From NCBI GenBank assembly GCA_008704415.1, contig VXIS01000008.1:62001-126000 (forward strand): DNA of 64,000 bases, given 5' to 3'. Made by a program: the position numbers and the translations under genes. The notes beneath the pieces were generated by a model. That model saw only the letters and a program-made list of their open reading frames with translations, did no database searches and was not told where the DNA came from. Shown here piece by piece: positions 39,917 to 61,120 of the stretch (positions are counted from its first letter, which is position 1; the number at the start of each line of letters is the position of its first letter). Origin of the DNA: Sphaerosporella brunnea. Lineage: Eukaryota; Ascomycota; Pezizomycetes; Pezizales; Pyronemataceae.

Positions 39917-40419
39917 ACGTGCGTGACGAAATGACCGGCGTGATACTTCATCTGCGAGCAGCGCAGAGTTCTGGGCTTTCACGCTTGCCTCCGGGCCATC
40001 ATACTCTGTGTAGGCTGTTTCCACCAATAGCGGGCTTGCGGAAATGCCCGGAATTTCGAGAGGGAGACATTGATAATCGCATTTTGTGTGATAGCACCGT
40101 GTCACGTCACGCCATGCCATGGGAGAGCCCACGAAGCGGTGCACCGCTCGGCTCTCTCGTGATGGTGCCAGGTGCCACTCCGGTTAACAACGTAGATCAA
40201 GAAGGTCACCGAAGGACTTGAGGATTTACTAAACCATTCAGTCTCGCTGGCGATTACTCCGTATTGATTTGCGCGGTTTACATCCAAAAAGGAAACCAGC
40301 CTACAAAAAATTGCAACTCAGCAGTGTTGAAAAGACCATCAAAGCGGTCAGCAAGGCAGGACAATTGATTTGTTATTACCATCCTTTTTGTGGTGTTTCG
40401 TTGGGTTGCTCACTTGAGG
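39917..40419 (+). other. Conserved 5' flank of F-box/ankyrin gene 1
   Basis: The segment is homologous to 59,083-59,440 upstream of gene 3. In both copies one plus-strand frame stays open and aligns (TGVI..., AGLR..., RIL..., TVS..., VPG..PV). It may be a short upstream ORF, an exon of another gene, or untranslated sequence with chance openness. Confidence 0.5.
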
Positions 40420-41469
40420 ATGTTTTTTCTGCGCAGAACTTTTCGGCATTGCCGCCGGCCTAGAAATGGCCTCACGGAGCGCTCATGTCAGGTCCAAGCT
40501 ACGGCAGAAGACCCCACCAGACACGCTTGGCACCGTGCACATCTTTGTGGACGCTCAGGCGGCCCTAAGACGTCTAAGGCACGGCGACCCCGGTGCAGGT
40601 CAATGGCTATTGCCACGCATCCGCCAGGCCGAAGCCGAGCTGCGCCAACTCGGATGGGCCGTCGAATATAGATGGGTGCCAGGACACAAGGGCGTCCCAG
40701 GCAATGAAATGGCTGACCATTTTGCCAAAGCCGCGGCAAGAGACCGACTCGATAAATCACACACAATCGAGGTCACCTCTCTCGCACACATCGGACGTCT
40801 GGTCACCGACGCAAGATCCAAGGACCGAAATGGATGGCTTAGCCAGCAGATTAAAGCCAAGTCCTACTACAGACGCAAGGCAAAGTGGGATAAGACGGCG
40901 GCGAAGGCTCCGAAGACCTTGGCATCCCGCTACTATCAGCTCCGCCTGAACAAGACGCCTACAGCCCCATACCTCATGTGGACGGGTCGCAGGGCGGACG
41001 ACAAATGCTGGTGGTGCCGCAAAGCACCCAAGCAGACAAGGGAGCACCTCATGAAGAGATGCGCCAAGTGGCGTAAAGAGCAGGACGTTTTGTGGAAGAC
41101 AATTGGTGCGGCGACAAGAGAGGGCGGTAAGGAGGGCTGGAGAAAAGCCTCCACTCCTGTAGCCAGAGTTATGGCGGATGCAAGATGCACCGAAGCCATC
41201 CTCGGCTTTCTGGACAGCACACAAGTGGGGAAGTGGCCGGAGAGGCCACAAGAATGATCGGAAATTGATGTCTTTTCCCTTTGTCTTTCTTTTCTTTTCT
41301 TTTTCCTTTTTCACTCTATTAGTTACGAATTTCCTTGGTGCGCCTTTCAGATCACGCCCGTCTGTGGACACTTGAGGTTCAAGGGTAGATCTGTGTATAT
41401 AGCCCCCATGTCATGGCCGCAAGCGGCCGAATACAGGATGATTAAAACAAACAAAATGTTTTTTCTGCG
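40420..41469 (+). mobile_element. 5'-truncated LINE with 14-bp target duplications
   Basis: ATGTTTTTTCTGCG occurs at 40420-40433 and again at 41456-41469 and bounds a 1,022-bp insertion. The insert holds the end of a reverse transcriptase ORF, a 198-bp 3' untranslated region and an A-rich tail (GATTAAAACAAACAAA). Target duplications of this length with 5' truncation are typical of LINE retroposition. The homologous locus at about 59,440 has the site without the insert. Confidence 0.85.
40434..41257 (+). pseudogene. LINE ORF2 C-terminus: RNase H and CCHC finger
   Basis: The frame enters at the truncation point as AELFGIAAGLEMAS (RNase H Glu block). It continues with HIFVDAQAALRRL (catalytic Asp) and EYRWVPGHKGVPGNEMADHFA (His and Asp block), then a basic linker and a C-terminal CWWCRKAPKQTREHLMKRC finger of CX2CX9HX4C type. 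This order is that of Tad1/I-clade LINEs of filamentous fungi. The endonuclease and reverse transcriptase domains are gone, so it cannot retrotranspose alone. The remaining frame has no internal stop, which suggests a fairly recent insertion. Confidence 0.85.
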
Positions 41470-41476
41470 GCATCAT

Positions 41477-41482
41477 CACGTG
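41477..41482. promoter_or_regulatory. CACGTG E-box, gene 1 promoter
   Basis: The site sits in the conserved CATCATCACGTGCCGGCA block, 79 bp upstream of the start codon of F-box/ankyrin gene 1 and 7 bp downstream of the LINE target duplication. The same block occurs upstream of genes 2 and 3. CACGTG is the classical bHLH recognition site; function here is inference. Confidence 0.55.
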
Positions 41483-41560
41483 CCGGCATGGATGACTAAG
41501 CCAGCAGGTGACATTCGCTGTGTTACGATCGCGTCCCGACAAAACCACCAAGCCACCGTC

Positions 41561-42463
41561 ATGTCGTCAACCGCGCCATTTCTCGCGTTGCCGACCGAAA
41601 CGCTCCGCGAGATCGGCGACCTCCTTTCGGTGAGCGACCTCAGCGCTCTATCCCGCGCGTCCCGCACGTTCCATTCAGTTTTCACACGGCCGCTTTTCCG
41701 ACGCGTCCGAGAGTCCCTGAGAACGCATCTGTTCCGCATTATGCACAGCAACAACATCCGCCTGCTTACCTACCTCCTTGATGAGGGCCTTCCGGTCGAT
41801 TGCACCATGAACACAGGCACAAACCCGACCCCCCTTGTGTCCACGCTTTTGCACTTCGCGGCGTATAGCGGCAGTGACGCGCTGGTCCGACTGCTGATTG
41901 ATCGCGGTGCCAACATCTCTGCCGCTACCAACGTCAACCCCGAGGGGCACGTCCAGCGAGCGATTACGAACGACTCGGAAGTGCTCAACGCCGGCAAGGG
42001 CTGGACCCCGCTGCACTGTGCGGCGATCAACGGGCATGATGTGGTGGCCAGGCTGCTGATTGAAAATGGCGCCGTGGTCTGTGCCGCGGCCGAGAATGGG
42101 AAGACGCCGCTGCATTGCGCGGCGTATGAAGGCCACGTGGCCATGTGTGAGCTGCTCATTTCGAAGGGCGCCAACGTCTCGGCGGTCAATAAGAGAGGCG
42201 TTACCGCGTTGTTCTCTGCTGCAATGAGGGGCCATGAGGAGGTGGCGCGGATGCTGATTGCGAACGGTGCTGAGGTGTCTATCGCTGACGAGAACGGGCG
42301 GACCCCCCTTCACTATGCGGCGATGTTCGGGTGGGCGTCGGTTTTCCGTTTGTTCCTCTTGAAAGGCGCCAACGTGTCAGCTCTCGACGTTTGGGGGGAC
42401 ACCCCGATACAGATGGCAACCCGTAAGATGCCTGCCGCTGTCATAGAGCTGATATCTGAGTGA
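41561..42463 (+). CDS. F-box/ankyrin-repeat protein 1
   Basis: Intronless gene of 300 residues. The start is the Met of MSSTAPFLALPTE, chosen because the paralogues start at the same point; the frame is open further upstream only through LINE-derived sequence. An F-box covers about residues 10-45 (LPTETLREIGDLLSVSDLSALSR). A helical linker (LLTYLLDEGLPVDC) is followed by about five full ankyrin repeats (from residues 92, 147, 181, 213 and 246; TPLHCAA...GH...LLIxxGA pattern) and a C-cap from about 279. F-box proteins bind SKP1 in SCF E3 ligases and the ankyrin face would hold the substrate, so a substrate-adaptor role is inferred. The LINE insertion about 105 bp upstream may affect its transcription. 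Confidence 0.85.
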   Translation: MSSTAPFLALPTETLREIGDLLSVSDLSALSRASRTFHSVFTRPLFRRVRESLRTHLFRIMHSNNIRLLTYLLDEGLPVDCTMNTGTNPTPLVSTLLHFAAYSGSDALVRLLIDRGANISAATNVNPEGHVQRAITNDSEVLNAGKGWTPLHCAAINGHDVVARLLIENGAVVCAAAENGKTPLHCAAYEGHVAMCELLISKGANVSAVNKRGVTALFSAAMRGHEEVARMLIANGAEVSIADENGRTPLHYAAMFGWASVFRLFLLKGANVSALDVWGDTPIQMATRKMPAAVIELISE

Positions 42464-43060
42464 CAGGTCAACCCGTCCGCGGGAGAGACCTTATCACCCA
42501 ATGGCGGCGCTGTGCAGTTCGTGAATATTCCTTCTCAGTGTGGTTATCTGTAGGCTGTGTGCTGAGAGGTCGTGGGGGATGGACATGGGAGGTGAATAGG
42601 CTGGACGGAGGCAAGGAAGGTGTGCGGCAAGAAGTATCAATTACAGATATTCTGATGGAGTGTCGCATAATTTGTAGAACTCCATAAGCCCTGAAGCAGT
42701 TGTATCCCCCATACCCCTGCGCCCGTTTATGCACTCGGGATGACCTCCTATCCCCCGCCTCAACATCGCAACCTTCCCCGGCGGGTCTCACTGTTGCCAG
42801 TATGGCTGATGCCAGAATCTCTTCCCCAGCCGACCGAAAGGGCGGCCAAATACGGCATATTTCGAGCCACAATGCCTTGCATATGAGCGCCTATGCACTT
42901 CGACACCATGATAACTGGCTATTAGTGGGCATCTGGTACCATGCAGGTTGTTCATCGCGTTTGAATGACCGAGGCCGAAGGGTTCCGCCGGCGAAGTAGA
43001 GTGTAGTGTAGTTAAAGGAAGGGTTTGGGGGAAACCAATGCTTGACTGCGCAGTGCGACA
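42464..43060 (+). other. Conserved 3' flank of gene 1
   Basis: Homologous to 60,640-61,120 after gene 3, with anchors TGGTTATCTGTAGGC, CACTCGGGATGACCTCC and AGGAAGGGTTTGGGG. The first 200 bp also match the flank of gene 2. Contains the 3' untranslated region and no further gene. Confidence 0.65.
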
Positions 43061-43989
43061 GTTAAAGCTTAAACTGCTGGGCTCACTTCCTCGTCAATCT
43101 GAGGATTTTCCGCTGGAGTTGACCGTGCCCAATTACAGCCCGTGATGGTGTATTACCGGATGTATGGGCGCCCAGTCCAATTCGTTGCGTGAGATATGTG
43201 ATCCCAGATGGGGTCGTCTTCAAAACTCGAGTTTGTTAAGTGAGCGTGCGCGGTCTCTACCAAGCAACCGCGATAGCGAGTTAAGTTCGAAGCCTCACGC
43301 TTTCTAGAGCTTCCGCTCTGGGCTCTTCATATCGCGACGACTTCAGTACCACCATGTCCTGTTAACGACACTCGCACAATCTCACAATGGTCTTCATCAG
43401 TCGTATATTATGTTCCACATCCTGCCAGAATGAAATGCCGATGTATGTGCCCCCAGTGCAATATACTTCCATACTGAGATGAAAAGCGCAGGATGGTCAC
43501 CATTTCTAACAGCCTGAAGATCCTCACACAGCGTGACCTACTTTCCATGAATAATCTCAACCCGCTAAGCCAGGGCGGCTGGTGTTTTTGCAAACAGTGC
43601 AACAAAAACTGCGGCCTCAATTTACCAGAATGGCCGACAGTGGGCCACGCAGATTTTCGGAGTGTCGGGCTTGAACTTTGAAGGCATTCTTGGAGTGTTC
43701 GAGGCGAATACTGGCAGGTATTCAGGTCCACTGGCATCGCCACGGTACAGAGGCTGTGGTTTTGTGCGCCGCAAGCCGCAAAGGTCTGGATAAACGAATG
43801 TACCTTTTTGCAGGGTTGATTGTGACCAGTCCGTGGTGGCACCTATGGTTTTCAATGGCCTCCCCCCAACTGAGTGGATACCAGGCGGCATTACAGACGC
43901 TGCGAACGGTGTATATTTACACGCGCGTGTACAAGGTTGTATCCGGTCGCTTTTCCTGCGTTATCCTGCAAGCCGAATTTGTCACGCTG
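43061..43989. other. Unrecognised coding-like stretch
   Basis: Both strands stay open between about 43,490 and 44,045. A plus-strand reading has a Cys-rich WCFCKQCNKNCGL block. Another frame gives protein-like sequence with MVFNGLPPTEWIPGGITDAA, while the minus strand also has a plausible 89-residue reading. The coding strand cannot be decided by eye and no family is recognised. Confidence 0.3.
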
Positions 43990-45153
43990 TGGAGTGCGTG
44001 GTCGTAATCTGGTATATAGCTTTGGCCGTTTCTGTGCCCTATTGACCTGCATTTGCTTCTTACCGGGGAGGTTGATCATCTCGCTAACGTGACTGGCCAT
44101 GCCTGACCAGTCGCTGCAGGTGTGGGTGAGTGATCAAGTTTCTTGGCTGTATCAGACCGCGTGCGATGATGACAGATCCCCTACTCGTCTCCGCTCTTGT
44201 TGATAGCTTCAACTATCTAAAAGGACATCAAAATACAGCAACAGGGGCGACATGTACAAAAGCAGTGTCCACCAGGGACCAATCGGACCTATTCTTGACG
44301 GTATCACCTGTCACAATCCGCTTTCATAGACTTCTAAACGTCCAAAGACTCTGTTGCTACAATGTTGCGACTTACCAAGTACTAGACAATAAACCCGGGG
44401 GCATGAAGGTAACGTTTAGCTCCGCATCCAGCGTTCGTGCCCATGACCAGCTGTGGACAAACAGCTGCACTGGAAACAGGTCTCGTGGCAGGGTTGTCTA
44501 TAGTCCGACCGCCCGCCAGGTGAAACCGGGCCCCACGCAGTGGGTCAGTTCGAGCCGATGATGCGGAAAGCCTGATAGGTTCGGGTCGGTGTAAGAAAAG
44601 TCTGGATATCTGATAGGTGCTGGCCGTCGCCGGGTACGCCTGGTCAAGATCGGTTCGGTCAGCAGGCCGAACTCAGGGCCACTAAAAGCGCTGATCTCTT
44701 CCGCAGGAGCTCAAGTGTCGATCGCAATGAATTGGCTTGTCGATCTCCACCAGAATCTGCGCACGTTTAACCCAAAAACTACAGCTCAAAATAAAACGGA
44801 GCGGAAGTGCGCACCTTTTGCTGACAAATCACGCCCTTTTACCCAGCAAATTCAGGTCGGAAGAGAGGCGGAAGAATACGGATCCGAATTGCTGATGTTT
44901 TGCTTGGAACAGCGGGCGGAGGAGATTGATGGGTACGCGCTTCACGTTGGATCTGTATCTCGCTTTCCTAGTACCGGTGCCTTGCAGGACCGCCCGGCGC
45001 TGGGTGTTCACCGGACCTGATGCGCACCTTCAGTCACCTGGGTCCCGCTCAAAATTGCCTGGTCCAAACGGGCCGTAATTTTCAAAGCCCGTTTGTATCA
45101 AGCGGGTTCAGGCCTCCTCCAAAGTCGGAAACGCCTGAATTCTGACAGCCCTG
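43990..45153 (+). mobile_element. hAT-B element, long eroded copy
   Basis: The right end is TCTGACAGCCCTG at 45,153. The interior matches the 62.4-63.05 kb region: TAGCTTTGGCCG and CGTGACTGGCCATGCC on the left, GTGTCGATCGCAAT in the middle, and CCTGGTCCAAACGGGCCG near the right end. The left terminus and target duplication are not found, and no intact transposase is present. Confidence 0.5.
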
Positions 45154-45324
45154 GATGAAACGTTCGAATTCTGGAGCTGCCGGGGAACGGCACCAGCCTG
45201 ACGCTGTGGAGGACTTGGTTTGCGTTGTTTTTTTTTGGATGAACGCGAGCGATGTAATACTATGGGTTTCTGACCGATGAAATGACGATACGTGATACGA
45301 GACACGCGAAAAAAAATATAATCT

Positions 45325-45450
45325 AGAGGTGCGCACGGGGCGACGGGTCGGGGCGCGCACGGGCGGAGCGCGACGAGGTGGGCCGGGGCACGACGGGGTG
45401 GATCGCAGCGCGGTGAGGTGGTTCGGGGTGCGACGGGGTACATCTGGGCG
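45325..45450. repeat. GC-rich dispersed minisatellite, copy 2
   Basis: Words such as CGGGGCGCGACGGGGTGG repeat with a period near 17-20 bp. Related to 4,940-5,200 and 45,884-45,970. Confidence 0.6.
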
Positions 45451-45883
45451 GCAGCGGGGGAAGAGTAATATATGCGGCGCATTCCGGGCCGCTACGCTTA
45501 ACAGTCCAAGTGGCGCACAAGGCGGTCATCTGAGATAACCGCCGCGCCGGCGGTACGCCTCGCACCCAAAGTTCATATAACAGCTAAGAAATCACAGGAC
45601 TGCACCGTTACAAAACCTCACCGCAAGACATGTGAGCAAATTCCCCATTCCAAAATCTACGCCGCCTCAGCGCGCGGTTTTCCACCTCCCTCCAAATCCT
45701 GGCTGTATGTTTCCAACACTGAATCGAACCCCAAGACGCCCGGTTCCCGCCTCCCGCGAAGCGTCACAAGTGCCTGCAGGGTTTGCTGCGACATTGCCGC
45801 CTGACGCCAACACATGCCCCTTCGAGCCGTCAAACGAGGTACCCCAGGAAAGAACCCTGATGTCGTCGATAGGCTGTACGCGA
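45451..45883. other. No recognisable gene
   Basis: Overlapping ORFs of about 115-122 codons occur on both strands, without motifs. Confidence 0.35.
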
Positions 45884-45970
45884 GTTCGGGGTGTTCGGGG
45901 TCTGACGAGGTGGCCGGGGCGCGGCGAGGTGGATCGGAGTCGGGCGAGGCTTTCTCCGCCTGGTCGAGCC
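45884..45970. repeat. GC-rich dispersed minisatellite, copy 3
   Basis: Nearly the reverse complement of 4,950-5,050, sharing the GACGAGGTGGCCGGGGCGCG phrase and a GAGGCTTTCTCCGCC tail. It is followed near 45,998 by a CATATATAGAG TATA-like word. Confidence 0.6.
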
Positions 45971-46039
45971 TCGTGCCCCGTCGGGTCGCCCCGACTCTAG
46001 GCATATATAGAGCCGAGAGACGATGCTGCTACAAGGTTG

Positions 46040-49000
46040 ATACATCCTTGTGTGGAGCCTGCGGCGCTTTCAAGGAACAGAACCCAAGGCAATGCTACTG
46101 ATAAACAGAAAACATTGTGGTTCCCTGGCTCGTGCCCGGAGCCCAATCCTCCTCCAGCTTGGCTTTCCCCTTTCCCTTCGCGTTTCGACTTCCCCCCCTC
46201 CCCCCTTCGGGTTTGTGTGAGTTTTGAGGCTTGGTGTCAGCAGCTCCTCCACAGCACAAATTGAAGCTCCCACCTCCGCCCCGAGCCAGCCGTGTCAAGG
46301 CATCGCTTAATCCTCCTGGATGCTTCGAATGCATTTGCGAGGGCGCGGGAGAGATTTCTCCTGCGTGAGTCATCTGGTTCGGACATGGGCCTGACTGCAC
46401 CGAGCGCTAGGTTTCAACTCTGACGTAGCAGGTGCTGTCGGCCTTTGTGGCGGTGCGGCGGCGCAGGCTCCATCTCGATTGCGGTCGTAGCTCGAGGGCT
46501 TTTCGCCTTGAGCCCCTTGAGCGGAACCAGAATCTCTCCGTTTTGGTCGACAGGGATTTTCAGCTAAAGTACGATCGTGGCCAAACTGGCCATGTTGGCA
46601 TGATATCCTTCCGTGAGCGCGGCGATATGCCGTCCTGAAATTCCCTCTATCCCGGCGGGGCGGGAGGCGGCCGGAGGGGAGTCTGAGCCGGGTCCGGCAT
46701 CTCAGCACCGCGCGTCTCCGCGTCTGAAGATGGGTCGTTCGCCGCCGCCCAATTCGCGACAAACTGGGCAGCTTTGCCGCAGCCATGGTATCTCTTAGGA
46801 GTATCAGTAGAATTTTCCGGCGAGCACGATTGCGGGTACCTTGCGGCCGCACAAACTTTACGGGATTGACGCACGGGGTGTTGGGGCTTGCTGACTTCGG
46901 GAAGGGAAGGCAGTTATCGGGCAGTGAGGCAAATGTTGGTTCCGTGACGGGAATCTTTCTGGCGGCTTCCTTTGTTTCTACCGTTGTACTTGAAAACACC
47001 GCTCTGCATCCACCCGACCCTTCCCCAACCGGGTGAATGTCGCATTTGCGTCTCCGCTGATTCACCGTCATCCAAGTTGTCAGCCTCGCCGCTGCCGCGG
47101 CCAAAAGCGATGGTGACACCTGCTGCCGCCAGCGCCGTGTCGCTGGCAAACGTGCCAACAACTGCGGTTCGACCTCGCTCGAATCCGCAGAAAGACCTAT
47201 CCTGAGTCGGTTCCGGGGGCTCTATCCACCGTCCACTACCTGGCAGGAGGGGGCCAGCACACTTTTGTCAAGGAGGCATATGCGGCGGACAGTTGCATTG
47301 GACGTTTGTTTTTCTGCACCCCTCAAGGCCGATCATCGCGACGTGTTTGCAACGCGCACGCAGCTGGATGCGTGTGCAGAGCTGGCTAGAGCTGAACGAT
47401 TGCTGTGAAGACCAAAGTGGTTGCCTGTGAGCGGGAACGACTTACCACTGTAAATACTAACGGCGGTCGAGGCCGCCGGCGGGGGGGCTTAGGTAGGGGC
47501 TGCGCGAGGGATGCCAATCATGTTCCAACAGTGGAAGAGGAACGGTCTCCGGTGCAAGTTGGTATTCCGTTAGTGGTGTTTAATCAAAGTATTGCATCGG
47601 GGATATCCCACAACGTCCGGCTACACCGTGATTTCAGTCTGCTGTGACTTGCTCGCGCCAGGGATATATTTCAGTGGTTTTCAGCCGTCCGGCCAAGCGC
47701 ACGAGGGCGGCTGCCCGGTGGAGAGACCGCGCAAGGCGGGTAGGCGCGCGGTCGTCCTCGAGGTTTGAGTAGTGGGTCGGATAGTCCGTAGGCTTTCCGA
47801 TATCGAGGATAAACCATAACATCATGAGGCGCTTATCAGGGTAAGTCCCTGGGTTATCTATCTACTTTGATCTCAAGGTACCAGGCTACGCAACTTCACC
47901 ATCACAACTGCGTTCCGAACAGCTCTGGTCCAACTCAGCCACTCGTCGTTGCCACAGTTCGCACAAAGGTCCCCGGCAGCCACATATCGTACCGTTATCC
48001 ACGTTCCACCGCACCGCTCCGGAACGCAGGCCAGCATTGAGCCTATGCATAGCCTCAGCGCAATGGACCCGATCATCATGGCGCCTGAAACGTATCGCCC
48101 ACAACAGGGCGTTTTTCCTAACGTCCTCGCGGTGCCGCGCGAGATCTCCCTGCCGCCGCTGAAGTTTGTCGTCTCCGGATCCCCCAGGATTTATTTTATC
48201 CCGAATGACAAAATCCAGACATACGAGGTACGCACAACTCCCGGTGGTGGGCGTTGGTGCCAGCAAGCTGAAGTTAGAGTTTCCGCTGCGGCCACTAGGC
48301 CCTGAAACAGGTTGTCGCGGAAAGGCTCGAAATTGGCCTGGAGGTCGTCCTGGATATGTATGGTGATTGCGTCGATGAAGATGGCTGGCCGGGAATGGCG
48401 TTCTCGTGGCCATACTACACAGGAAAGTTCACCGTCATTGGCGCGCCGCTGTTCTCGGAATCCTTGCTCATCGTCGAGTTCAAACCCAAGCGGCTGGCAA
48501 TCAAACTTGCGCTTCCCCGGCCACACAACCTCACCGTGGGATGCCTTTGCAGGATTGTGGTCGAATACATGCGCCAGCTGAGGACGGCCGGTGAGCTCGC
48601 AGCCGTCGGGTTGTTGCCTTCGGACCTTGCGACTTTGTATATTGAGGGCGCTACAAGTGGCGAACTAGTCCAAGGACTACTCAATCGAGTTTGTGAGGCG
48701 TGCCCCAAAACGCCCACGCTGTTTGCGGTGACCGGAGCCACGTGAGCTGACGTCGACAACTAGAAAGCTAGCGACGGCACAGCCTGCACATTCATCGCGG
48801 TGAAGATGCAGTTGATCAAATTTCCCGACAAACGTGAACCAACTGAGGACATATTGATGGCTGCCGCGACCACCATCTCGCAGGTTAAATCGTCTGTCGA
48901 GAGGTGCTTTTTCGAGGCTCTGCGCGTTGACCATGACGCGTGGAAGGACGAGATGATTGGGCAACATGATGTGGTCGTGCGCAGCGACGGCGGCCACTGG

Positions 49001-49757: not shown

Positions 49758-50474
49758 CGGGCAGTTAGACTGCGAGCTAGTAGGACAGAGCAGCACGAAG
49801 GGCCAGGCTTCGAGCCTCTTGGGGCGGGCAATGGGCGGGGATAGTGCTGGAAGCTCGGAGGCCGAGTTGACGGAAACGCCTTCGGCTCTTGGCGGGCCCC
49901 TATCAATGGGCCCCGTCCGGTCAAAGCCTCCCCTTGCGGGTCCTCCAGATTGCCAGCACCGCACCTAGTGATGGACACAAGCCGGCGGCCCGAGCCAAAA
50001 GGTCGAGCTGCAAGCCGAGCCGAGTACCATTGACGAGCCGAGCAGGCTCGAATGCGTTGCCCGCTGAGCCGAGCTTTGGTTCGAGCCCGGTGGTGGAAGA
50101 AGGCACTAGATGGCCGTGTGGGGCGGAAAGTACAACAATATGCTATCAAATTCCATGATTGCGAAAGCTCCCAGAAAAGGACACCCACACGTCCAGCCCC
50201 CACCACAACGCACTCACGCCGAAAAACCACGATCGCCGCACGTTGCCAGGCCGCGCCCTCTTCTACGGAAGATGAAATTGACGCGTTGAACAAGAAGATG
50301 GCGGGTAGTTGGAGTAATTGCTACTTGATATCTGTTTGTTGGTGCAAACTGACCGGGCGGACTAGACATGCACTACAGAGCTGGCGACGCGCGAACCCTC
50401 AGTGGGCTCAAAAATTCCAGTTTTGATGCCTTTTTATATAAGAGAAGGATGGGACTTTGTCGAAGGAGATCATC

Positions 50475-51608
50475 AAGGACGCTCATCCTCCCCGTGTATT
50501 CAAATCTATGCCCCCATGGATGGTTGTCAGGTGGGGTGGCCCCGCGAAGGGACCTGTGGCTCTCGGTGTTAAACTGTGCTAACGGCCTTTAATGTCTATG
50601 GAATCAGCTCAAACTTACAGATATAGGGCATCCAAGGACGCACATGCTCCCGCTACATTCAAATCTATCCCCCCATGGATGGTTGTTATGTGGGATGGCT
50701 CGGCGGGGTGTCCTGTGGCTTTCGGGTCAAACTGTTATGCTGGCATTTACTCTCCATGCAATGAGCTCCAACTTACATATATAGCGCATTCAAGAACACT
50801 CGTCCCTCTTCAGTAATCAAGTCTATCCCCACAGGGATGTTTGGCATGTCTGATGGCCACGCGCGGGGTCTTAGTCAAACTGTTATACTGGGCTTTACTC
50901 TGAATTGAATCAGCTGAAACTTACAGATATAGGGCATCAAAGGACGCTCATCCGCCCCCTGTATTAAAATCTATCCCCACATGGATGTTTGGCATGTCTG
51001 ATGGCCACGCGCGGGGTCCAAGTCAAACTGTTATACGGGCCTTTACTCTGGATGGAATAAGCTCAAACTCACAGATATAGGCCACCAAAAGACGCTCATG
51101 CAGCCACAATATTCAAATGTATCCCCACATTGATGGTTGGCATGTGGGATGGCCCGGCGTGGTGTGCTGTGGCTTTCGGGGTCAAACTGTTATACCGGTC
51201 TTTACTCTCGCTGGAATCAGCTCAAACCTACAGATATGGGGCATGCAAGGACGCGCATCCTCCCCGTGTATTCAAATCTATCCCCTCCATGGATGGTTGG
51301 CATGTGTGATGGCAACGCGCGTGGTCCTAGTCAAACTGTTATACTGGGCTTTACTCTGAATTGAATCAGCTGAAACTTACAGATATAGGGCATCAGAGGA
51401 CGCTCATCCGCCCCCTGTATTCAAATCTATCCCCTCATTGATGGTTGGCATGCCGGATGGCCGCGCGGAGGGTGCGGTGGCTCCCGGGGTCAACATGTTA
51501 TGCTGGCCTTTACCCTGCTTGGAATGAGCTCAAACTTTAAGATATAGGGCATTAAAGAACGCTCGTCCTCCCACTGTATTCAAATCTATCCCCCCATTGA
51601 TGGTTGTC
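50475..51608 (+). repeat. 150-160-bp satellite array inside a hAT element
   Basis: Units begin AARGACGCTCRTCC and start at about 50475, 50634, 50792, 50940, 51089, 51247, 51396 and 51555, the last being cut at 51,608 by a hAT-A TIR. Unit lengths are 158-159 or 148-149 bp, two size classes differing by about 10 bp. Each contains CATGGATGGTTGGCATG-like and TCAAACTGTTATACTGG-like words. Confidence 0.85.
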
Positions 51609-52505: not shown

Positions 52506-52829
52506 CCAGTTCCCTTTATTGCCTTCTACCCGCCTGTGTCCACAATCGGGGACCAAAACGTATGGATTGCAGCCAATGCTCTGCTGATTGGTTTCACGGG
52601 ACGACCCTGCTATGTTCTGCACGATACTTCCCCTCGCAATTCAGCGAGTTACTGGATCGCAATGACACCTTGAAAAGCACGCTCCACAGGTGCGGGGACA
52701 TCAACACTGCGCACGGATCCAATATTCAACCACCCTCAGCGATAGATGATGCAGCTTGATGTATATGTGAGATAGCAAACGCTCCACCCGGCGTCGCTGA
52801 TTAACAAATTGAACTCCGAACCTGGGAAG
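52506..52829. other. No recognisable gene
   Basis: Flank between the LTR-like repeat and repeat R copy 3. Short ORFs only. Confidence 0.35.
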
Positions 52830-54900
52830 TGTGTCTGCCCGCCCGGACGGCCAATGGACCGGTGGATTCAGAAGCAGATGCCGTAATCATACCTGTCATT
52901 GCACCGCCCATTGACAGTCAACCCCAAGGCGTGAGTGGCGGAAAAGACCCCATCCTGTGGTTGACCCTGGTGCTGGCTTTCCTTTGGATATCAAGCCATG
53001 GCCATGCACTCTGATACAACCACGTTGAATATTTGCCCCGCCTCAACAACACTAGCCTTCACTATCCCTGTGGTTGCAATGCGTTTGCCGTCATGCGCAC
53101 ATGCAAGCGACAAGAGCTTTCCTGCCGCCACAGGGGATTTCCTGCGCTGTCACCGTGTCGGTTGCTCCGGTTCCGTCGAGGGGCAGCCGGCCTCCACATC
53201 CATGGGACTTGACATGCTGGGCTGGTAAACACAGAGCAATCTCTGCCGCGAGCCATGACCGCCCTCCGCGTACCGTTCTTGGTACCCGCATAGCTCAAAC
53301 AAACTACTGCAGTCGGCATGCGATAGACGCGAGCTGTGAACTCTGAGAAACGGACCCGGCCACGCCACACGCAACGTGACATCCAATTCGCGCCTCTGGC
53401 CAACGAGCCGGGTCGTGTGTGGCGCTCCGTCGGTGTTCAGGAGCATGTCATCGCAAGCTCCGCCACAAGAATGTGAGGTTTCCAATTGCGATTTGGCGTG
53501 CTCGACCCAGATGGCAATGCATTCACGCGTCACGTCGAGTCTTGCACGTGCGTTAGAAACGGCAGTAGCAGCTGCGGGTGATGATAAGATTTCCGGTGTG
53601 TTGGGCGGTGATCAGTATGCGGGTATTATGTTTCGGGGCTTATACTCGATGGGGCAAGTGTAAGGAGGTTGGTGTGTGGAAGCTGGGTTCCGATGTTTCC
53701 TCCGTTGTGCGTGGGAGATGACTTCACAGTGAACTGATGCCTGTGGGGCGGTGCCGGCAGCTGCCTGGCAATGAAGGGCCTGTGAATGTAGGGGAATAGC
53801 TTCCAGTTCGGACTATTGATGATCAAATGGTATCCGGAAATCCAACCGTGCATTTGCGCGCGGCTTGACCCTCAATCGCGCCAGCCGCAAAGGGAGGAGT
53901 TGACGTTTCGGTCCTCAGCATACAGCTCTTTCACCGCATAAAGAAAAAGACACCTTCTTCCTGCTCGCCCTGTTTGGCAGCCCCGCGCCAGTCGATGTCC
54001 ACGGGTTTTGTGCGTGTCAGGTCAGACAATCGTCATGTGCGCGGTAGATACGACGCCCGCAGGACAATGGGCGTGAACTTTGGATCATGCCTTACAACGC
54101 TCTTGCTCACTGGATGCCGCCCAAGGCACGTAGAAAGTGTTGACGCAATGATGGGAAAATTTACTGCGGGGTCGGGGATGGCGTGATCCTGGTCATGTAC
54201 ATATGTTATCGTAGGATCAGAGGATACCAAGTGGCCATCGCACCGCTGCACCATATTCGCTGTGTCTCACTGCTGAAGCACTCATTCTACAAGGAAGGGC
54301 AGCCACAATCTCGGCGCTGACGAACACCATATCTCCATGAACTGGCACCAGCCGCGCCTCTTGAGGACAAGTGGTCGCGTCCCAAGCTGGTTGAAAGTGA
54401 GATAGATTCTGGCATCCTCGAGCGGGTCTTATAAACATGATCCTCCTCGCTAATCCCCATTCCCAACCCTACTCGCCACGTGCCCCCCAATGGTACAGCT
54501 CTCCTTTGGCCCAAACGGACAGGTGGCTGAGCCGTCGAATCACATGCACCACATGCCGCGCAATCGCGCAGATTTTTGGACCAGATTCCAATCGCAAACC
54601 TCAGCAACAGGAGTAGGACGAGTACCGAGCTGGCACTGGACCACGACGCGGACACCGTAGAAACCCCTGATAACCGCGGTCAGCCTCGGTGATTGCTCTG
54701 CTTTCACTTGTTGTAGTGGGAAGTCTGTGGGACGGGAGAGAGGTGGTGACGGACGTTGACACCGCGGCTGGCAGTCTGCTCCTCAGTCCGGCGCCCACCT
54801 AGGCAACGCATTCGCGAACAACGCCCGGGGAGGGATGGCCGGATTTGAAGGGCCGACGCCGTCGAAAATCTCACACGCACTGCCTGCATTGCAGTACATA
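52830..54900 (+). repeat. Segmental repeat R, copy 3 (partial)
   Basis: It aligns with 36,830-38,150 and with 29,540-31,320: the TCGAGGGGCAGCC block near 53,176, GTCGGCATGCGATAGA near 53,313, CACGTAGAAAG near 54,127 and TTGTAGTGGGAAGTCTGTGG near 54,711. Its first 150 bp (GTGAGTGGCGGAAAAGACCC near 52,931) also match 22,870-22,935. One ORF there (52,829-53,014) ends in a hydrophobic stretch, ILWLTLVLAFLWIS, that could be a membrane anchor of a lost gene. Confidence 0.65.
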
Positions 54901-55269
54901 GAGCCGAAAGCGACGAGGCGAACTCCCAACGTGGACGTTGTCACCGCATGCACAAAATCGGCTCCACCTTCGTGGTGATCATGAATCACAATGCTATGGG
55001 CACCAGTCAAGTCGATAACTGCCCGGTCCGTGCGATTGACACACGGTGAGTACCACCTCTCCCAGGAGACCGGTGTAGCCTCACCGCTGTCCCACACATA
55101 CATCGCGGCCAGATCCAAATCACCCCGTCGAGGTTCTTCACCTTCAGTCACTCGCGACCCTCAGCACTTGCGGGCACGAGACCCAGCCTCCACTGAGGGC
55201 GCCGGGGGTAAAAACAGGTAGACATTGAACGCCTTGCCGTGATGCTACGGTTCCATCGGTCGAGGCATA
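54901..55269. other. No recognisable gene
   Basis: A 122-codon minus-strand ORF (55,151-54,783) has protein-like composition (YVWDSGEATPVSWERWYSP) but no recognised domain. Confidence 0.3.
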
Positions 55270-55443
55270 CTCGGCGGTAGCCAGCCGTGGTATGCCACCC
55301 GCAGAAATCTATCAAAGTTGCAATTGTTCTCCCTGTCGAACGTCACCACAGTATAAAGCAAAGCTTCCGGATGCCGTTGCGCGTGTTCGGGGTTAGCACT
55401 TCTAGCCCTGACCCTTCTGCGCGTGACGGTGTTTTCGGTGGGT

Positions 55444-55449
55444 CACGTG
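55444..55449. promoter_or_regulatory. CACGTG E-box, gene 2 promoter
   Basis: Lies in the block GGTCACGTGCCGGC, 106 bp upstream of the start codon of F-box/ankyrin gene 2 and homologous to the sites before genes 1 and 3. Confidence 0.55.
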
Positions 55450-55554
55450 CCGGCTCATGTGGCGCACCGTGGATAGGCAGTCACGCTCGCAACTTAATTC
55501 ACGATTATACTCTGTTCATTGCAGGCGCAAACCACCACATTGCAAACCACCATC

Positions 55555-56517
55555 ATGTCGCCAACAACCCCATACCCACCTTTACCAACGGAAATATTCC
55601 TCGCGATTGGGGATCTCCTCGAGATCCGCGACCTTAGCGCTCTTTCCCGCACGTGCTGGTTGTTCCGTTACGTGTTCACCTTGCCGCTTTTCCGACGCGT
55701 CCGAGAGTCCCTGAGCACCTCTCTGTTCCGCATTATGCAGAGCAACAACAACGTCCGCCTGCTTACCTACCTCCTTGATGAGGGCCTTCCGGTCGATTGC
55801 ACCATGAACACAGGCACAAATCCGACCCCCCTTGTGTCCACGCTTTTGCACTTCGCGGCGTATAGCGGCAGCGACGCGCTGGTCCGACTGCTGCTCGATC
55901 GCGGTGCCGACGTCTCGGCCGCCACCACACGCAACACCGACGCGCAGGTCCAGCGAGCGATTGCGAACGACTCGGAAGCCCTGGGTGCCGACGCGGGCTC
56001 GACCGCACTGCACATTGCCGGGAAATACGGGCGTGAGGTGGTGGCCACGCTGCTCATTGATAACGGCGCCGTGGTCTGTGCCGCGGCAGAGGACGGGTCG
56101 ACGCCGCTGCATTGGGCGGTGTGTGGGGGCCATCAGGCCATGAGTGAGTTGCTCATCTCGAAGGGGGCCGACGTCTCGGCTGTGGACCGCTGTGGCCGGC
56201 GGCCGCTGCACTATGCGGCCTTGGAAGGCCATGCGGTCGTGTGTGAGCTGCTCATTTCGAAGGGCGCGAACGTCTCTATTGCCGACAGCGACCGGTTCGC
56301 CCCCATTCACTATGCGGCGATGAGCGGGCGGGCGTCGGTTGCCCGGTTGCTCATCGAGAAAGGCGCCAGCGTGTCAGCTCTTGCATTTGGCGGGTTGACC
56401 CCGATGTGCTTCGCAACCAGCGAGACGCATTGGGCTGTGAGACAGGTATTACTTGACAGCTCATTGGCGTCCGCTGGAGAGACTGCGTCACTCAACGGGG
56501 GCGCAGGTCGGGAGTGA
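55555..56517 (+). CDS. F-box/ankyrin-repeat protein 2
   Basis: Intronless, 320 residues, starting MSPTTPYPPLPTE directly after two AAACCACCA words. The F-box lies at about residues 9-45 (LPTEIFLAIGDLLEIRDLSALSR). The LLTYLLDEGLPVDC linker precedes about five full ankyrin repeats (TLLHFAAYSG, TALHIAGKYG, TPLHWAVCGG, RPLHYAALEG, APIHYAAMSG) and a C-cap. It has a longer C-terminal tail (SLASAGETASLNGG) than gene 1. A block of about 200 bp (55,685-55,895) is about 95% identical to gene 1, while the neighbouring coding sequence is much more diverged. Inferred SCF substrate adaptor. Confidence 0.85.
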   Translation: MSPTTPYPPLPTEIFLAIGDLLEIRDLSALSRTCWLFRYVFTLPLFRRVRESLSTSLFRIMQSNNNVRLLTYLLDEGLPVDCTMNTGTNPTPLVSTLLHFAAYSGSDALVRLLLDRGADVSAATTRNTDAQVQRAIANDSEALGADAGSTALHIAGKYGREVVATLLIDNGAVVCAAAEDGSTPLHWAVCGGHQAMSELLISKGADVSAVDRCGRRPLHYAALEGHAVVCELLISKGANVSIADSDRFAPIHYAAMSGRASVARLLIEKGASVSALAFGGLTPMCFATSETHWAVRQVLLDSSLASAGETASLNGGAGRE

Positions 56518-56719
56518 TCTCAAAATCACGATGATCGCGACTCTTCCTTCGTTGTGTCGGTGCATGCTGTCTGGCGGCGGGGGTCTCGGAGGGCGTGGGG
56601 GAGAGAAACGACAGTATGTAAATAGGTGTGCGGCAATGGTATCAATCGCAGATATTGAGATGCAGAACTCCATGGCCCCCGATAAAACCTGTATCCCCGT
56701 ACGCCTGCGCCCGTTTATC

Positions 56720-57245
56720 GAGGTCATGTCCATATGTTATCGTGGAATCATAGAAGCCCGCTGGAACACAAAGCCACTCTTTCACAGCAGCGCCACATAC
56801 AGTCACTCGGAAGCACTCAGTCCACGCCCCCAGCTCCAATCCCGGCGCCGACCAACACCAGCTAGCCCTGAACTGCAACAGGCGCTCCTCTGTATGCGCC
56901 CAAACGGACATGTTCCCGCGCCGGCAAATGCAGTACAGTCGTGCAAATTTTCGGACTGGATACCAATTGTAACAGTGGCAGCACCAAGCGCAGCAAGAGT
57001 ACTGATTGGGCGCCCCAGAAACGGTATTCCTGGCTATTGGACAGGCTGGCAAGTGAGCACTGGGCGCTGTTGGATGTGGTCACCAGATGGTCGGACAGGC
57101 AGAAACGCCTGATCACCGCTGTCGCCCTCGATGCTTGCGCTGCAGGAACACATCGGCGTGGTAACTCTGGGGAATGGGAGGCAGGTCAAGACGAAGGTTG
57201 ACACCACCGCTGGCAGCGTCTGCTACTCTGCGGTTTTGATAGGTT
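56720..57245 (+). repeat. Segmental repeat R, copy 4 (short)
   Basis: It matches R copy 2 at 37,860-38,610 from GTCCATATGTTATCGTGGAA to TGGCAGCGTCTGC. It joins the 3' flank of F-box/ankyrin gene 2 without a gap and shows the R sequence without the hAT-A fragment. Confidence 0.65.
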
Positions 57246-57599
57246 GCAACAGGCGGAGGCGTTCTGCTGGCAAGTATCATTTGGGCAGCTTGAAATGATC
57301 CCATGCAGGAGCGAATCCCCTCTGTAGGAGCTCTTAGCAAGATCGAAGGCTGCGGAACTGGTGACTAAGATCAGGCCCCACGGGTACTACGATGTGCGGA
57401 TGGGGGGGCGTGCAATGTCCAAGGCGAATGCAGCGGGTAACACAATTTTTGATGGCCATAGCTAGGCTCCACCAGCCTGCCATCTGCAATAAGGCAATGA
57501 ACCTGCGCTGGGGAGCATCTCATGAACCGACCTCAATACGGATAACATAGTGGGTAAACGTCAATCTGCAACTGTGATCGAGTAGAGATGGGGAAAGAC
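57246..57599. other. No recognisable gene
   Basis: Short ORFs only; no motif seen. Confidence 0.4.
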
Positions 57600-58120
57600 A
57601 CGCAGGACTGCTACCAACCCACATCTCGCATCAAAGTGGTGACCTCAGTAACACCCATATACGAAATAATTGCCTGAAAGCTTGCGTACAGCGGCAGCGA
57701 CGAGCTAGTCCGGCCGCTGTTTGAACACATTGCACTGGCACGATTGGATGGCCCTGCTCGTCGTTCACTACTGCGCGGAGGTCTGTGCCGCTGACTGGCA
57801 CGCAGCGTGTCGGGGTCACGTGGTCGTTTGTTGACGGGCGCCAACGTCTCGGCAATGCACTCGCTGGGTCGACCATGCGCCGAAGGCAGGGCATGCGGAG
57901 GGCGCGCCTGCTCCTTGCACGCGGCGCAGACGTCTCACCCACCCGACAGCACAGATGGACCGCCTGTTGCGCGCCGCATACAACGGCCATGTGGAGGCTG
58001 CGCCGCCGCAGCTTGACAATGGTCCCGACGGCTGGGCCACTGGCTGGAAACCCAGACCCCGCCACACCGCGGGGTAACATACGGGCGCGACTTGCTCGTC
58101 TGTTTCCTCGGGGATAGTGG
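57600..58120 (+). pseudogene. Ankyrin-repeat pseudogene of the F-box/ankyrin family
   Basis: The phrase GCGTACAGCGGCAGCGACGA followed by GCTAGTCCGGCCGCTG near 57,683 matches the first ankyrin repeat of genes 1-3, and GGGCGCCAACGTCTCGGC near 57,836 matches a later one (GANVSA). Several frame changes break the reading. No F-box remnant is visible upstream. It is a fourth, decayed family member lying between genes 2 and 3. Confidence 0.65.
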
Positions 58121-59082
58121 CGCATTTATGGACGCGTGGGGCCATGACACCCTGGCCCTGGCAGTTCAAGGCGATCACGAGGCGCGGGTCTACCGGTTGC
58201 CTAGCAGGGCAACGTCGCCCTCCTGCGTGGAGTGACGAGTCTTGGGCCTCGCAGTAAGCAGGGCGCGGCGGGTCCGTCGAGCGAAGATCCTTGTATAGTC
58301 CACATGATCGCGGTGCTGGTGGAGCAGCAGCACAGAGCCGCAACACGGAGCCGCATCACGGAGCCGCAACACTGAGGCTCGGCTAACTGGCCAATCATAG
58401 CGCTGACCGGATCCGCCACCCTCCTTCGGCACGTGACTCCGCGATGCAGAGCCGCAACGCAACGCCACAACACAACGCCACCAACCCTGCCGACCTCGCG
58501 CAGTGCCTCCGTTTCGCACGTTCGTGATCCACCTTCTGGCGCTAAGTTGCGGTCGTCGCCGGCTGATGCGCCTGGTGGCACTTCTTGATTGTACCGAGGT
58601 GAGCCCACCTGCGCGATGCCAAAATTCGCCGGTTGCGTGAACGGAAGGCCATGACCGCAAAATGCGCATCACTTTCCACGGAGCACATCGGCAGCGGCGA
58701 TGACCGGCCCTAAAGCCGATGAAGTCGTATGTGGTGGCAGACCTCGTTGTGCGCGCGCTTCGCAGTCCCCCAACAAGGACTGACGAAATGTTATCGGCGT
58801 ACCTCCGGGCGTCGCGGCTTTCTGGGCTGCGAACTTGACCACGCGGGGTCGACCGGAGACCATTGACACCCGCTACTACGTCGCCCGTGACCCCACCAAT
58901 TGCGCCGAGCGTGCGCGCAGAGACCCGGTTAATTTGGAGACGGGGATCAAGAAGAGCATCGTCGACATGAGAGCCCGGTCGGCGGGGCAGACAACGACGA
59001 GCCGAGCTCGTGGGTCGGTGAGGGTTCCAAGACCCCGAATCAGGCCTCTATTGAGGTGTCGCATACTAAAATCTCGGCGTCC
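58121..59082. other. No recognisable gene
   Basis: GC-rich sequence with long but motif-free ORFs on both strands. A short repeated CGCAACACGGAGCCGCATCA / GGAGCCGCAACAC phrase lies at about 58,338-58,375. Confidence 0.35.
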
Positions 59083-59456
59083 GTCATCAATCACCGGCGT
59101 GATTGTTTTTCTGGGAGTCGCGCCCAACACTGGGCTCCGAGGCTTTGTTCAGCCCCTTGCTTCACCGTGTACGCAGTTTCTGGTCACAGCCGGCTTGCGG
59201 AATCGCCGGGCGTTTCCAGAGACGCACACTGGCGATCGCATTTTGGGTGGTCGCACGGTGTCACTGGGCGCAGTCCCAGCGGAGTGCCGAAACCGGGGCT
59301 CACTGCTCAGCTCCCGCGTGATCGTGCCAGGTCACTCTCCGGTGTTGACTTGTCGAGTCATCAAAGTGGCAAGCAAGACAGCGCCATCAGTTGGCAGCTA
59401 ACCTCGGTTCGGTTGGTTGGTCGGTTGCGCGTGACGATGTTTTGTCGTGGCATCAT

Positions 59457-59462
59457 CACGTG
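59457..59462. promoter_or_regulatory. CACGTG E-box, gene 3 promoter
   Basis: Lies in CATCATCACGTGCCGGCA, identical over that block to the promoter of gene 1, 92 bp upstream of the start codon of gene 3. Confidence 0.55.
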
Positions 59463-59553
59463 CCGGCACGGATGACTCAGCCAGCAGGGTAATATATATT
59501 CTCGGTGTCACGATCGCGTACCGCCCAAACCACCAAACCACCAAACCACCATC

Positions 59554-60639
59554 ATGTCGTCAACCCCCACATTCCCCGCGTTGCCGACCGACACGCTCTT
59601 CGACATCGCCGACCTCCTGTCGGTGCCCGACCTCAGCGCTCTGTCCCGCACGTGCCGGTCCTTGCATGTCCTTTTTACACGGCCGCTTGTCCGACGCGTC
59701 CAACGGTCCCTGAGCACCTGTCTGTTCCACGTCATGCAGAGCAACAACAACGTCCGCCTGCTCACCTACCTCCTCGATGAGGGCCTTCCGGTCGATTGCA
59801 CCATCCCCGCATACGAAATCTGGCGCAGACCCGTGTGCACGATTTTGCACTTGGCGGCGGATAGCGGCAGCGACGCGCTGGTCCGACTGCTGATCGATCG
59901 TGGTGCCAACATCTCGGCCGCCACAACGGTCGACACCGAGGCGCACGTCCAGCGAGCGTGGGTGATGGACTCGGAATCTCTCGACGTCCCCGTGGGCTCG
60001 ACCCCGCTGCACTGTGCGGCGGCGAAAGGACATGATGTGGTGTCCATGCTGCTGATTGAAAATGGCGCCGTGGTCTGTGCCGCGGCCAAGAATGGGAAGA
60101 CGCCGCTGCATTGCGCGGCGTATGAAGGCCACGTGGCCATGTGTGACCTGCTCATTGAAAATGGCGCCGTGGTCTGTGCCGCCACAGAGCGCGGCGAAAC
60201 ACCGCTGCATGTGGCGACGTATGACGGCCAGGCGGTCGTGTGTCAGCTGCTCCTTTCGAAGGGCGCCAACGTCTCGGCGGTCACAGATGAAGGACAGACC
60301 CCTTTGTTCTTTGCTGCACAGCTGCGGTATGCAAAGGTGGCGCGGCTGCTGATTGCCAACGGCGCTGACGTGTCTATCGCCGACAAGGCCGGGCGGACCC
60401 CCCTTCACAATGCGGCGATGCACGGGAAGGTGGTGGTTGCCGCCTTGCTCATCGAGAAAGGGGCCAACGTGGCAGCTGTCGACAATCTGGGGCAGATGCC
60501 GATACAAGTCGCAATCGATTTCATGCAGGACGATGTCGTAGCGCTACTACGTGACAGGTCACCGCCGTTCGCTAGAGAGACACTCAACAGGAGCGCTATA
60601 CGGTTCGGGATTCTTCCTCCTTTGACTGGTTATCTGTAG
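59554..60639 (+). CDS. F-box/ankyrin-repeat protein 3
   Basis: Intronless, 361 residues, starting MSSTPTFPALPTD after three consecutive AAACCACCA words. The F-box is at about residues 9-45 (LPTDTLFDIADLLSVPDLSALSR). After the LLTYLLDEGLPVDC linker come about six full ankyrin repeats and a C-cap, one repeat more than genes 1 and 2. The extra unit is explained by two nearly identical DNA blocks (ATTGAAAATGGCGCCGTGGT at about 60,055 and 60,155). The protein ends with a basic tail after LLRDRS. It lies in a 2-kb unit homologous to the gene 1 locus. Inferred SCF substrate adaptor with variable binding surface. Confidence 0.85.
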   Translation: MSSTPTFPALPTDTLFDIADLLSVPDLSALSRTCRSLHVLFTRPLVRRVQRSLSTCLFHVMQSNNNVRLLTYLLDEGLPVDCTIPAYEIWRRPVCTILHLAADSGSDALVRLLIDRGANISAATTVDTEAHVQRAWVMDSESLDVPVGSTPLHCAAAKGHDVVSMLLIENGAVVCAAAKNGKTPLHCAAYEGHVAMCDLLIENGAVVCAATERGETPLHVATYDGQAVVCQLLLSKGANVSAVTDEGQTPLFFAAQLRYAKVARLLIANGADVSIADKAGRTPLHNAAMHGKVVVAALLIEKGANVAAVDNLGQMPIQVAIDFMQDDVVALLRDRSPPFARETLNRSAIRFGILPPLTGYL

Positions 60640-61120
60640 GCAGGGTTCTGAGACGGCGTGGAGGAGGGACACGGGAGGTGAATGCGCAGGAGGTCGGCAA
60701 GGAAGGTGTCTGGAAATAGGTATCGATTACAGATATTCAGATGGCGTAATTTGTAGACCTTCATAACCTCTGAATAAATTGTATGCACCATGCCTCTGTC
60801 CCCGTTTATCCACTCGGGATGACCTCCAATCCCCCGCCTCAACATCGCCACCTTCTTCCAGGTATGGATGATGCCAGAATCGCGACTCCGACCGACTGAA
60901 ATGGTCGCAAAACACGGCATATTTCGAGCCTCTATGAGGCTGCACACGCTTCGAGACCATGATGACTGACTACGCTGTGAGGGCATCTGGTAACAGCGAT
61001 CGCCATGCAGCAGCACCAGGTTGTTGATGGCGTTTCCAGGACCAACGAGGAACAGAGCCGTCGCCGGATCACAGCGTAGTGCAGTCACAGGAAGGGTTTG
61101 GGGCAAATTACCTGACCACG
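60640..61120 (+). other. Conserved 3' flank of gene 3
   Basis: Homologous to 42,464-43,060 after gene 1. A 229-codon minus-strand ORF crosses it but is not preserved in the other copy, so it is not called. Confidence 0.6.

Follow-up and report, generated by a model that had tools for sequence, protein, structure and literature searches.

Fungal NOD-like receptors (NLRs) carry ANK, TPR, and WD repeats that are under positive selection on their concave face (Dyrka et al. 2014, PMC4986451), and in nematode F-box families, the F-box is mainly under purifying selection and the substrate domain under stronger positive selection (Thomas 2006, described in PMC12062965). F-box/ankyrin proteins have been counted in other fungi: Macrophomina phaseolina and Magnaporthe oryzae each have a single one, and Laccaria bicolor has none (PMC7991009), and the F-box and ankyrin expansions of Trichoderma are given as separate families (PMC3218866); these and the other cited statements apply to the accessible portions of each source. 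Here, we describe a family of F-box/ankyrin genes in Sphaerosporella brunnea, a member of the Pezizales that forms ectomycorrhizas and whose published draft genome comprises 872 contigs totaling 51.6 Mb (PMC6908789), starting from three members, G1, G2, and G3, in a 64,000-nucleotide stretch of DNA (the window; bases 62001 to 126000 of the 345,766-bp contig VXIS01000008.1) of a 50.6-Mb, 640-contig assembly (GCA_008704415.1). With a probability of about 0.6, we read the family, which our searches recovered from S. brunnea alone, as putative substrate adaptors of the SKP1-cullin-F-box (SCF) ubiquitin ligase with a diversifying binding face.

The family resembles the NLRs in its modular, length-variable ankyrin arrays and concave-face positive selection and, in the long-array clade only, in the similar repeats within one gene (nucleotide identity of 0.71 to 0.84); the NLR study sets its criterion for high internal repeat conservation at 85% over 100 amino acids (PMC4986451). 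It differs in that the S. brunnea proteins have an F-box, which the accessible text of the NLR repeat study does not mention (PMC4986451), and no NACHT or NB-ARC domain (no Pfam match in G1, G2, G3, or five further proteins scanned), and the internal repeat identity of G1 to G6 is low (0.48 to 0.56 at the nucleotide level). Like the nematode F-box adaptors, it is a large lineage-specific family with a conserved F-box and a selected substrate domain; however, the nematode substrate domain is FTH or FBA2, not ankyrin, and exchange of tracts between paralogues is not mentioned for the nematode families in the accessible part of that source (PMC12062965). The single F-box/ankyrin proteins of other fungi (PMC7991009) also unite both domains in one protein, but S. 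brunnea has at least 22. The combination of features exactly fits none of the compared NLR, nematode F-box, and single fungal F-box/ankyrin systems. Poxvirus ANK/F-box (PRANC) proteins offer a further likeness, with ankyrin repeats as the substrate grip and an F-box linking to SCF; their F-box is C-terminal and they are viral, whereas the F-box of S. brunnea is N-terminal (residues 7 to 49) and the genes are chromosomal. No fungal F-box/ankyrin family under diversifying selection was found in the open-licence PMC literature among the matches listed, judged by titles and abstract openings.

Window genes and domain architecture

The sequence-only reading had placed genes sharing an F-box, a linker, and ankyrin repeats at 41,561, 55,555, and 59,554, and Pfam matches bear out this layout in three single open reading frames (ORFs), each beginning with an ATG at the position given.

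41561 to 42463, plus strand: G1, intact F-box/ankyrin gene, single ORF, 300 amino acids
55555 to 56517, plus strand: G2, intact F-box/ankyrin gene, single ORF, 320 amino acids
59554 to 60639, plus strand: G3, intact F-box/ankyrin gene, single ORF, 361 amino acids
41828 to 42460, plus strand: ankyrin repeats of G1 by repeat scan, with repeat 1 (R1) at 41828 to 41926, an insert, and R2 to R6 every 33 codons from 41990
60049 to 60287, plus strand: internal tandem repetition in G3 by Tandem Repeats Finder, period 99 bp (one ankyrin unit), reported as two overlapping rows

The Pfam Ank model recognizes five repeats in G1, five in G2, and six in G3, and the repeat scan gives six, six, and seven. An AlphaFold2 model of G3 has a mean predicted local distance difference test (pLDDT) score of 85, with residues 151 to 330 in blocks at 97 to 98, and all of the 50 matches listed in a PDB fold search are ankyrin or designed ankyrin proteins. 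The F-box-like model (PF12937) scores 25.4 bits in G3, above its 24.3-bit cutoff, and stands clearly above it outside the window in C622 (35.1 bits), C501 (30.3 bits), and C15 (28.6 bits); it also passes in P0001 and in P0121, a member of 209 amino acids, making six of the eight proteins scanned.

Two observations weigh against a working F-box. The PF12937 scores of G1 (23.4 bits) and G2 (22.4 bits) fall 0.9 and 1.9 bits short of the cutoff, and AlphaFold2 models the F-box of G3 with low confidence, at a pLDDT of about 46 to 70 over residues 1 to 50; the three N-terminal helices modeled there (residues 12 to 21, 27 to 33, and 35 to 51) occupy the F-box at low to moderate confidence. Such signs would suit proteins that no longer use ubiquitin and that retain a vestigial F-box, with repeats serving as stand-alone or NLR-partner recognition modules, but we consider this quite improbable, given the five above-cutoff matches in proteins other than G3 and a ratio of amino acid-changing to silent substitution rates (omega) of 0.30 across the N-terminal region over eight gene pairs. 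From the F-box and its conservation, we infer a role in SCF.

Size, spread, and age of the family

Neither the number nor the youth attributed to this family of three by the sequence-only reading was upheld. The F-box/linker part has 63 genome matches with G3 as the query and 69 with G2 (E ≤0.01, fragments included). Among 40 fetched loci and the window genes, 23 open frames of more than 240 amino acids start with the family F-box; C128a was left out as distant and frames of 240 amino acids or fewer (for example, the 209-residue member) were excluded, leaving 22 members. Because 40 loci were taken and not every genome match, this number is a lower bound, and the S. brunnea genome thus holds at least 22 intact members, six of them on the window's contig. 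These six share one orientation and fit into about 75 kb, with a stop-broken relic and the 209-residue member farther along, and the genome contains many broken copies and fragments of the family. As for the cause of copy decay, repeat-induced point mutation left no sign (TpA/ApT ratios of 0.36 to 0.75 in the genes and the relic).

The common layout of the 22 members consists of the F-box, the linker, R1 at about residue 82 to 102, an insert of about 20 residues (absent from C146), and further repeats, which are mostly 33 residues apart and bring the total to 5 to 12 per protein. The long-array members C32 (L021), C204 (L025), C203 (L017), and C622 (L016) have 9 to 12 repeats each. Mean nucleotide identity between the repeats of one gene is 0.71 to 0.84 in these four, C501, and C146 and low, at the values given above, in G1 to G6. 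C547 (L029) and C544 (L030), on short contigs, are of equal length and 97% identical in nucleotides, being either a recent duplicate or an assembly duplicate.

Silent divergence over whole genes, estimated by codon maximum likelihood (ML), is 0.44 for G1-G2, 0.21 for G1-G3, and 0.50 for G2-G3, rising to 0.61 for G1-G2 outside their shared tract (tract 1, below), and a 1.2-kb G1-G3 alignment including the 3' flank is 71% identical. By these distances, the three genes are not a very recent triplication. In protein searches, two of the best 120 of 4,393 matches to whole G3 came from the window's contig, as did three of six and two of 26 matches to the F-box/linker region; in other species, the F-box/linker searches returned only partial matches covering 21 to 71% of the query, annotated with ankyrin but no F-box, and since the search requires shared five-residue words, this does not prove the family absent elsewhere.

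Selection on the presumed binding face

Ankyrin positions 2, 3, 5, 13, 14, and 33, which we take to be the binding face as in designed ankyrin proteins, were used as preset sites. In a class test over eight pairs sharing no gene (16 of the 22 members; codons with disagreeing repeat register dropped), omega was 0.30 in the N-terminal 85 residues, 0.35 in the repeat core, 0.89 at other repeat positions, and 2.81 at the preset positions (likelihood ratio test statistic [LRT] against 1, 105). The two pairs of the G1-G6 cluster alone gave a preset omega of 2.16 (LRT 14.8). Pair by pair, the preset value exceeded 1 in seven of eight cases, significantly in six; C632-C630 had 0.77 and G2-C501 had 1.16. 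Whole-gene omega (0.46 to 1.15 over 15 pairs) is uninformative because it averages opposite signals.

A tree-based site model, given no knowledge of the repeat positions, points to the same surface. For the clade of G1, G3, G5, G4, and C15, 16% of codons fall into a class with an omega of 5.3 (LRT 80.9); 22 of 190 ankyrin codons reach a posterior above 0.8, and 16 of these 22 are among the 35 preset codons (hypergeometric P = 2.2e-9). The signal persists without both shared tract regions (LRT 53.6) and in the ankyrin part only (LRT 55.8), and the mean fast-class posterior is 0.05 in residues 1 to 48. The strongest binding-face signal comes from the long-array members C32, C204, C203, and C622, whose clade, analyzed over the ankyrin part only, has an omega of 8.5 (LRT 123.6), with 24 of 31 fast sites among the 47 preset of 252 codons. 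Position 10 is also fast, though outside the preset list. When repeats were compared within one gene, the long arrays gave a preset omega of 2.16 over all pairs (LRT 49.6, the pairs not being independent) and 1.86 over disjoint neighbors (LRT 3.7), and the set of G1 to G6 and C15 was saturated.

Several results weigh against this interpretation. With silent distance estimated per class, the preset omega over the eight pairs drops to 1.70 (LRT 7.4); it is 2.68 (LRT 15.5) in five close pairs, 1.35 (LRT 0.9) in three close pairs, and 1.11 (LRT 0.2) in the six pairs that remain without the two long-array pairs. Estimated in this way, omega is significantly above 1 only in sets with long-array pairs. 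Recombination can inflate site-model tests, and in the long-array clade, whose members average a within-gene repeat identity of 0.71 to 0.84, the homology of the repeats is uncertain. The N-terminal half of the G1 clade by itself also has a fast class (LRT 23.7) of ten sites, of which residue 40 lies in the F-box and the rest in the linker and insert. Two other clades were not significant (LRT 3.8 with five genes and 0.0 with three), although C22a-C605, a pair from the former, has an omega of 2.60 in the pairwise test; positive selection is thus found in two of the four clades tested and is not shown family-wide. Ankyrin-only control genes, mostly saturated, also show a fast class, in which 20 of the 44 sites are preset (LRT 25.9; saturated tree of length 31), and the binding-face pattern may therefore not be specific to this family; their two independent usable pairs have preset omegas of 0.76 and 1.32 (pooled, 0.55). 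We regard these controls as uninformative.

Exposed ankyrin positions are generally variable, and the family might simply undergo birth and death under relaxed constraint, its fast positions being the tolerant ones of any ankyrin repeat. The many broken or fragmentary copies, the omega of 1.11 from preset codons alone, and the positional bias shared by the saturated controls would fit this explanation. It is nevertheless unlikely, because relaxation alone does not give an omega above 1, the N-terminal region and the repeat core remain constrained (0.30 and 0.35), and one pipeline returned omegas of 5.3 and 8.5 in two clades versus LRTs of 3.8 and 0.0 in their sister clades, the two clades without signal also arguing against a pipeline artifact. 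The site models support the view that at least two clades, including the window's, diversify the presumed binding face but conserve the structural core of the repeats and, taken as a whole, the F-box/linker. Diversification of a recognition surface, as anticipated in the sequence-only reading, is strongly supported by these codon patterns, by way of amino acid change at binding-face positions rather than through the shared tracts.

Probable exchange of short tracts between paralogues

The patchy identity noticed in the sequence-only reading is genuine: overall identity is 77% for G1-G2, 80% for G1-G3, and 72% for G2-G3, and divergence is nonuniform, with 90-nucleotide windows spanning 53% to 99%. 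Two tracts stand out.

41690 to 41900, plus strand: tract 1 in G1, residues 44 to 114 (end of the F-box, linker, and most of R1)
55685 to 55895, plus strand: tract 1 in G2, paired with G1 41690 to 41900
42044 to 42163, plus strand: tract 2 in G1, latter half of R2 plus R3 as far as about position 24
60040 to 60160, plus strand: tract 2 in G3, matching G1 tract 2

The near-identity reported for about 210 bp of G1-G2 and about 100 bp of G1-G3 amounts to 200 of 214 alignment columns in tract 1 (41690 to 41900 versus 55685 to 55895) and 98 of 102 columns in tract 2 (42060 to 42160 versus 60055 to 60155). Silent divergence in tract 1 is 0.075, versus 0.468 outside it, by pairwise silent-site analysis (0.086 within the tract by codon ML), and the 28.3 silent sites of tract 2 (42046 to 42160) show no difference, versus 36.8 differences in 201.7 sites outside.

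Permuting all 298 sites that vary among the three genes gave global P values of 0.0007 (G1-G2) and 0.0035 (G1-G3), and with all variable sites of seven genes, these were 0.0007 and 0.0010. Permutation of silent sites only, taken from amino acid-invariant codons, was not significant for the 43 such sites of the three genes (P = 0.92 and 0.31); the 62 sites available from seven genes gave P = 0.009 for G1-G2 and 1.0 for G1-G3. In the seven-gene test, silent runs over the linker are also common to G2-G3 (P = 0.011) and G2-G5 (P = 0.0025), and tract 1 is therefore not purely a G1-G2 matter. A pairwise silent scan supports both tracts, with 2.0 differences in 46 silent sites for tract 1 (P = 0.0025) and none in 38 for tract 2 (window of 42038 to 42187; P = 0.007); 10 of 21 pairs fell below 0.05 in this uncorrected scan. 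After correction for regional rate, P was 0.027 for tract 1 and 0.011 for tract 2, and three of the eight pairs tested remained below 0.05, the third being G4-G6. Most of these tests thus find the tracts significant, the exceptions being the three-gene silent-only test and, for G1-G3, the seven-gene silent test.

Without any gene conversion, tract 1 could instead stem from slow silent change in this region or from unequal crossing-over that produced a chimeric duplicate, and tract 2 could be a run of identity arising by chance among repeats. The nonsignificant three-gene test, the linker runs shared by G2-G3 and G2-G5, and the modest corrected P values would agree with this, as would the regional trend: silent divergence is lower in the linker and R1 for 82% of the 96 family pairs examined and is lower before R2 in general (0.324 versus 0.425), so that part of the tract excess there is regional. 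The regional level is nonetheless higher than that of tract 1, with silent divergence in the linker and R1 of 0.237 for G1-G3, 0.245 for G3-G5, 0.261 for G1-G4, and 0.132 for G1-G5, compared with 0.086 for G1-G2 in the tract, and the high identity is bounded on both sides. The 96 pairs were those kept from 231 after dropping pairs with a silent difference above 0.5 and the C544/C547 pair; at a false-discovery rate of 10%, 14 of them retain a silent tract, and at P <0.05, 23 do so versus 4.8 expected, the pairs sharing genes. Of the 14 best tracts, ten are mostly ahead of R2 and three are within the repeats; the remaining one is divided about equally between the two sides.

Segment trees bear on the same question. 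The F-box part of G2 is nearest to C501 and C622 and its linker is nearest to G1; accordingly placed, G1 and G2 are sisters in the linker-segment tree (support 96/98), and G2 lies outside the clade of G1, G3, G4, G5, G6, and C15 in the F-box-segment tree. Approximately unbiased (AU) tests of the linker segment reject G2 with the C501 clade (P = 0.023), but three alternative placements stand and leave room for an explanation without conversion, namely, a grouping of G2 with every non-clade gene in the linker (P = 0.19) and, in the F-box segment, G2 inside the clade (P = 0.35) or as sister of G1 (P = 0.078). On balance, we find the no-conversion account somewhat doubtful. G2 is likely a chimera, with its F-box from the C501/C622 clade and its linker from G1, although only one of the four AU tests rejects the alternative. 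G3 is 0.800 identical to its nearest relative, G5, inside tract 2 and 0.845 outside, which weakly suggests that G3 was the recipient. Exchange of short stretches between paralogues is probably real but moderate and more frequent in the adaptor half. Conversion had been proposed to shuffle a substrate-binding surface; this fits the smaller tract, which reaches into R3 to about position 24, and not the larger one, which runs from the last part of the F-box through the linker and across most of R1.

Surroundings of the genes

Three features adjoin or separate the window genes.

40434 to 41455 (1,022 bp), plus strand: repeat element with an RNase H ORF (Pfam RNase_H), ending 105 bp before the G1 start codon
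39787 to 40433, plus strand: older 5' flank of G1, about 75% alike to the G5 flank (blastn) and separated from G1 by the insertion
57606 to 58232, plus strand: possible much-decayed ankyrin remnant with short, roughly collinear translated matches

The RNase H element is flanked by perfect 14-bp direct repeats (40420 to 40433 and 41456 to 41469) and has at least 40 genomic matches of at least 490 bp, itself included (40 of 946 candidates scored); the simplest explanation is the insertion of part of a retroelement, which duplicated the target site. A fourth, decayed gene copy had been suggested at 57.6 kb. Its stretches 57606 to 57734, 57739 to 57828, and 58053 to 58232 do match linker and ankyrin parts, with DNA matches of about 20 to 60 bp, but weakly (best translated score, 31.2 bits versus a maximum of 29.6 in 40 shuffles); no F-box was recognized in 57606 to 58232, and a DNA search of the genome with 57600 to 58300 gave the self-match only.

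Elsewhere in the window, a tandem array lies between G1 and G2 (50471 to 51606); its unit is 148 bp and is also reported at 308 and 456 bp. A frame of 463 amino acids at 9287 to 10678 has a partial protein kinase domain and DUF6826. At 29634 to 31212 on the minus strand, two pairs of overlapping frames of 173 to 181 amino acids lie about 860 bp apart, possibly a local duplication; the two of these four frames that were scanned had no Pfam match.

Proposed mechanism and significance

In the adaptor model that we favor, the conserved F-box half would dock on SKP1 of the SCF ubiquitin ligase, and a target gripped by the concave repeat face would then be ubiquitinated. This face would be under pressure to change; paralogue exchange, as in tracts 1 and 2, would supply further variation, for which support is moderate, and gain and loss of repeats would alter array length. 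We conjecture that fast-changing targets, either foreign proteins or proteins differing between individuals, would explain the selection. More tentatively, the family may form a ubiquitin-coupled, NLR-like repertoire without a NOD domain, in which dozens of F-box receptors with diversifying ankyrin faces and exchanged adaptor halves mark foreign or non-self proteins for destruction.

Fast-diversifying repeat receptors of fungi are known chiefly as NLRs (PMC4986451). If our interpretation is true, a parallel family wired to degradation would broaden the concept of self/non-self and antiviral recognition in fungi; it would also give the rapidly evolving nematode F-box families a counterpart among fungi. 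The S. brunnea family offers a ready test case, in which 22 putative adaptors combine a conserved half for docking with mapped fast positions on the binding face.

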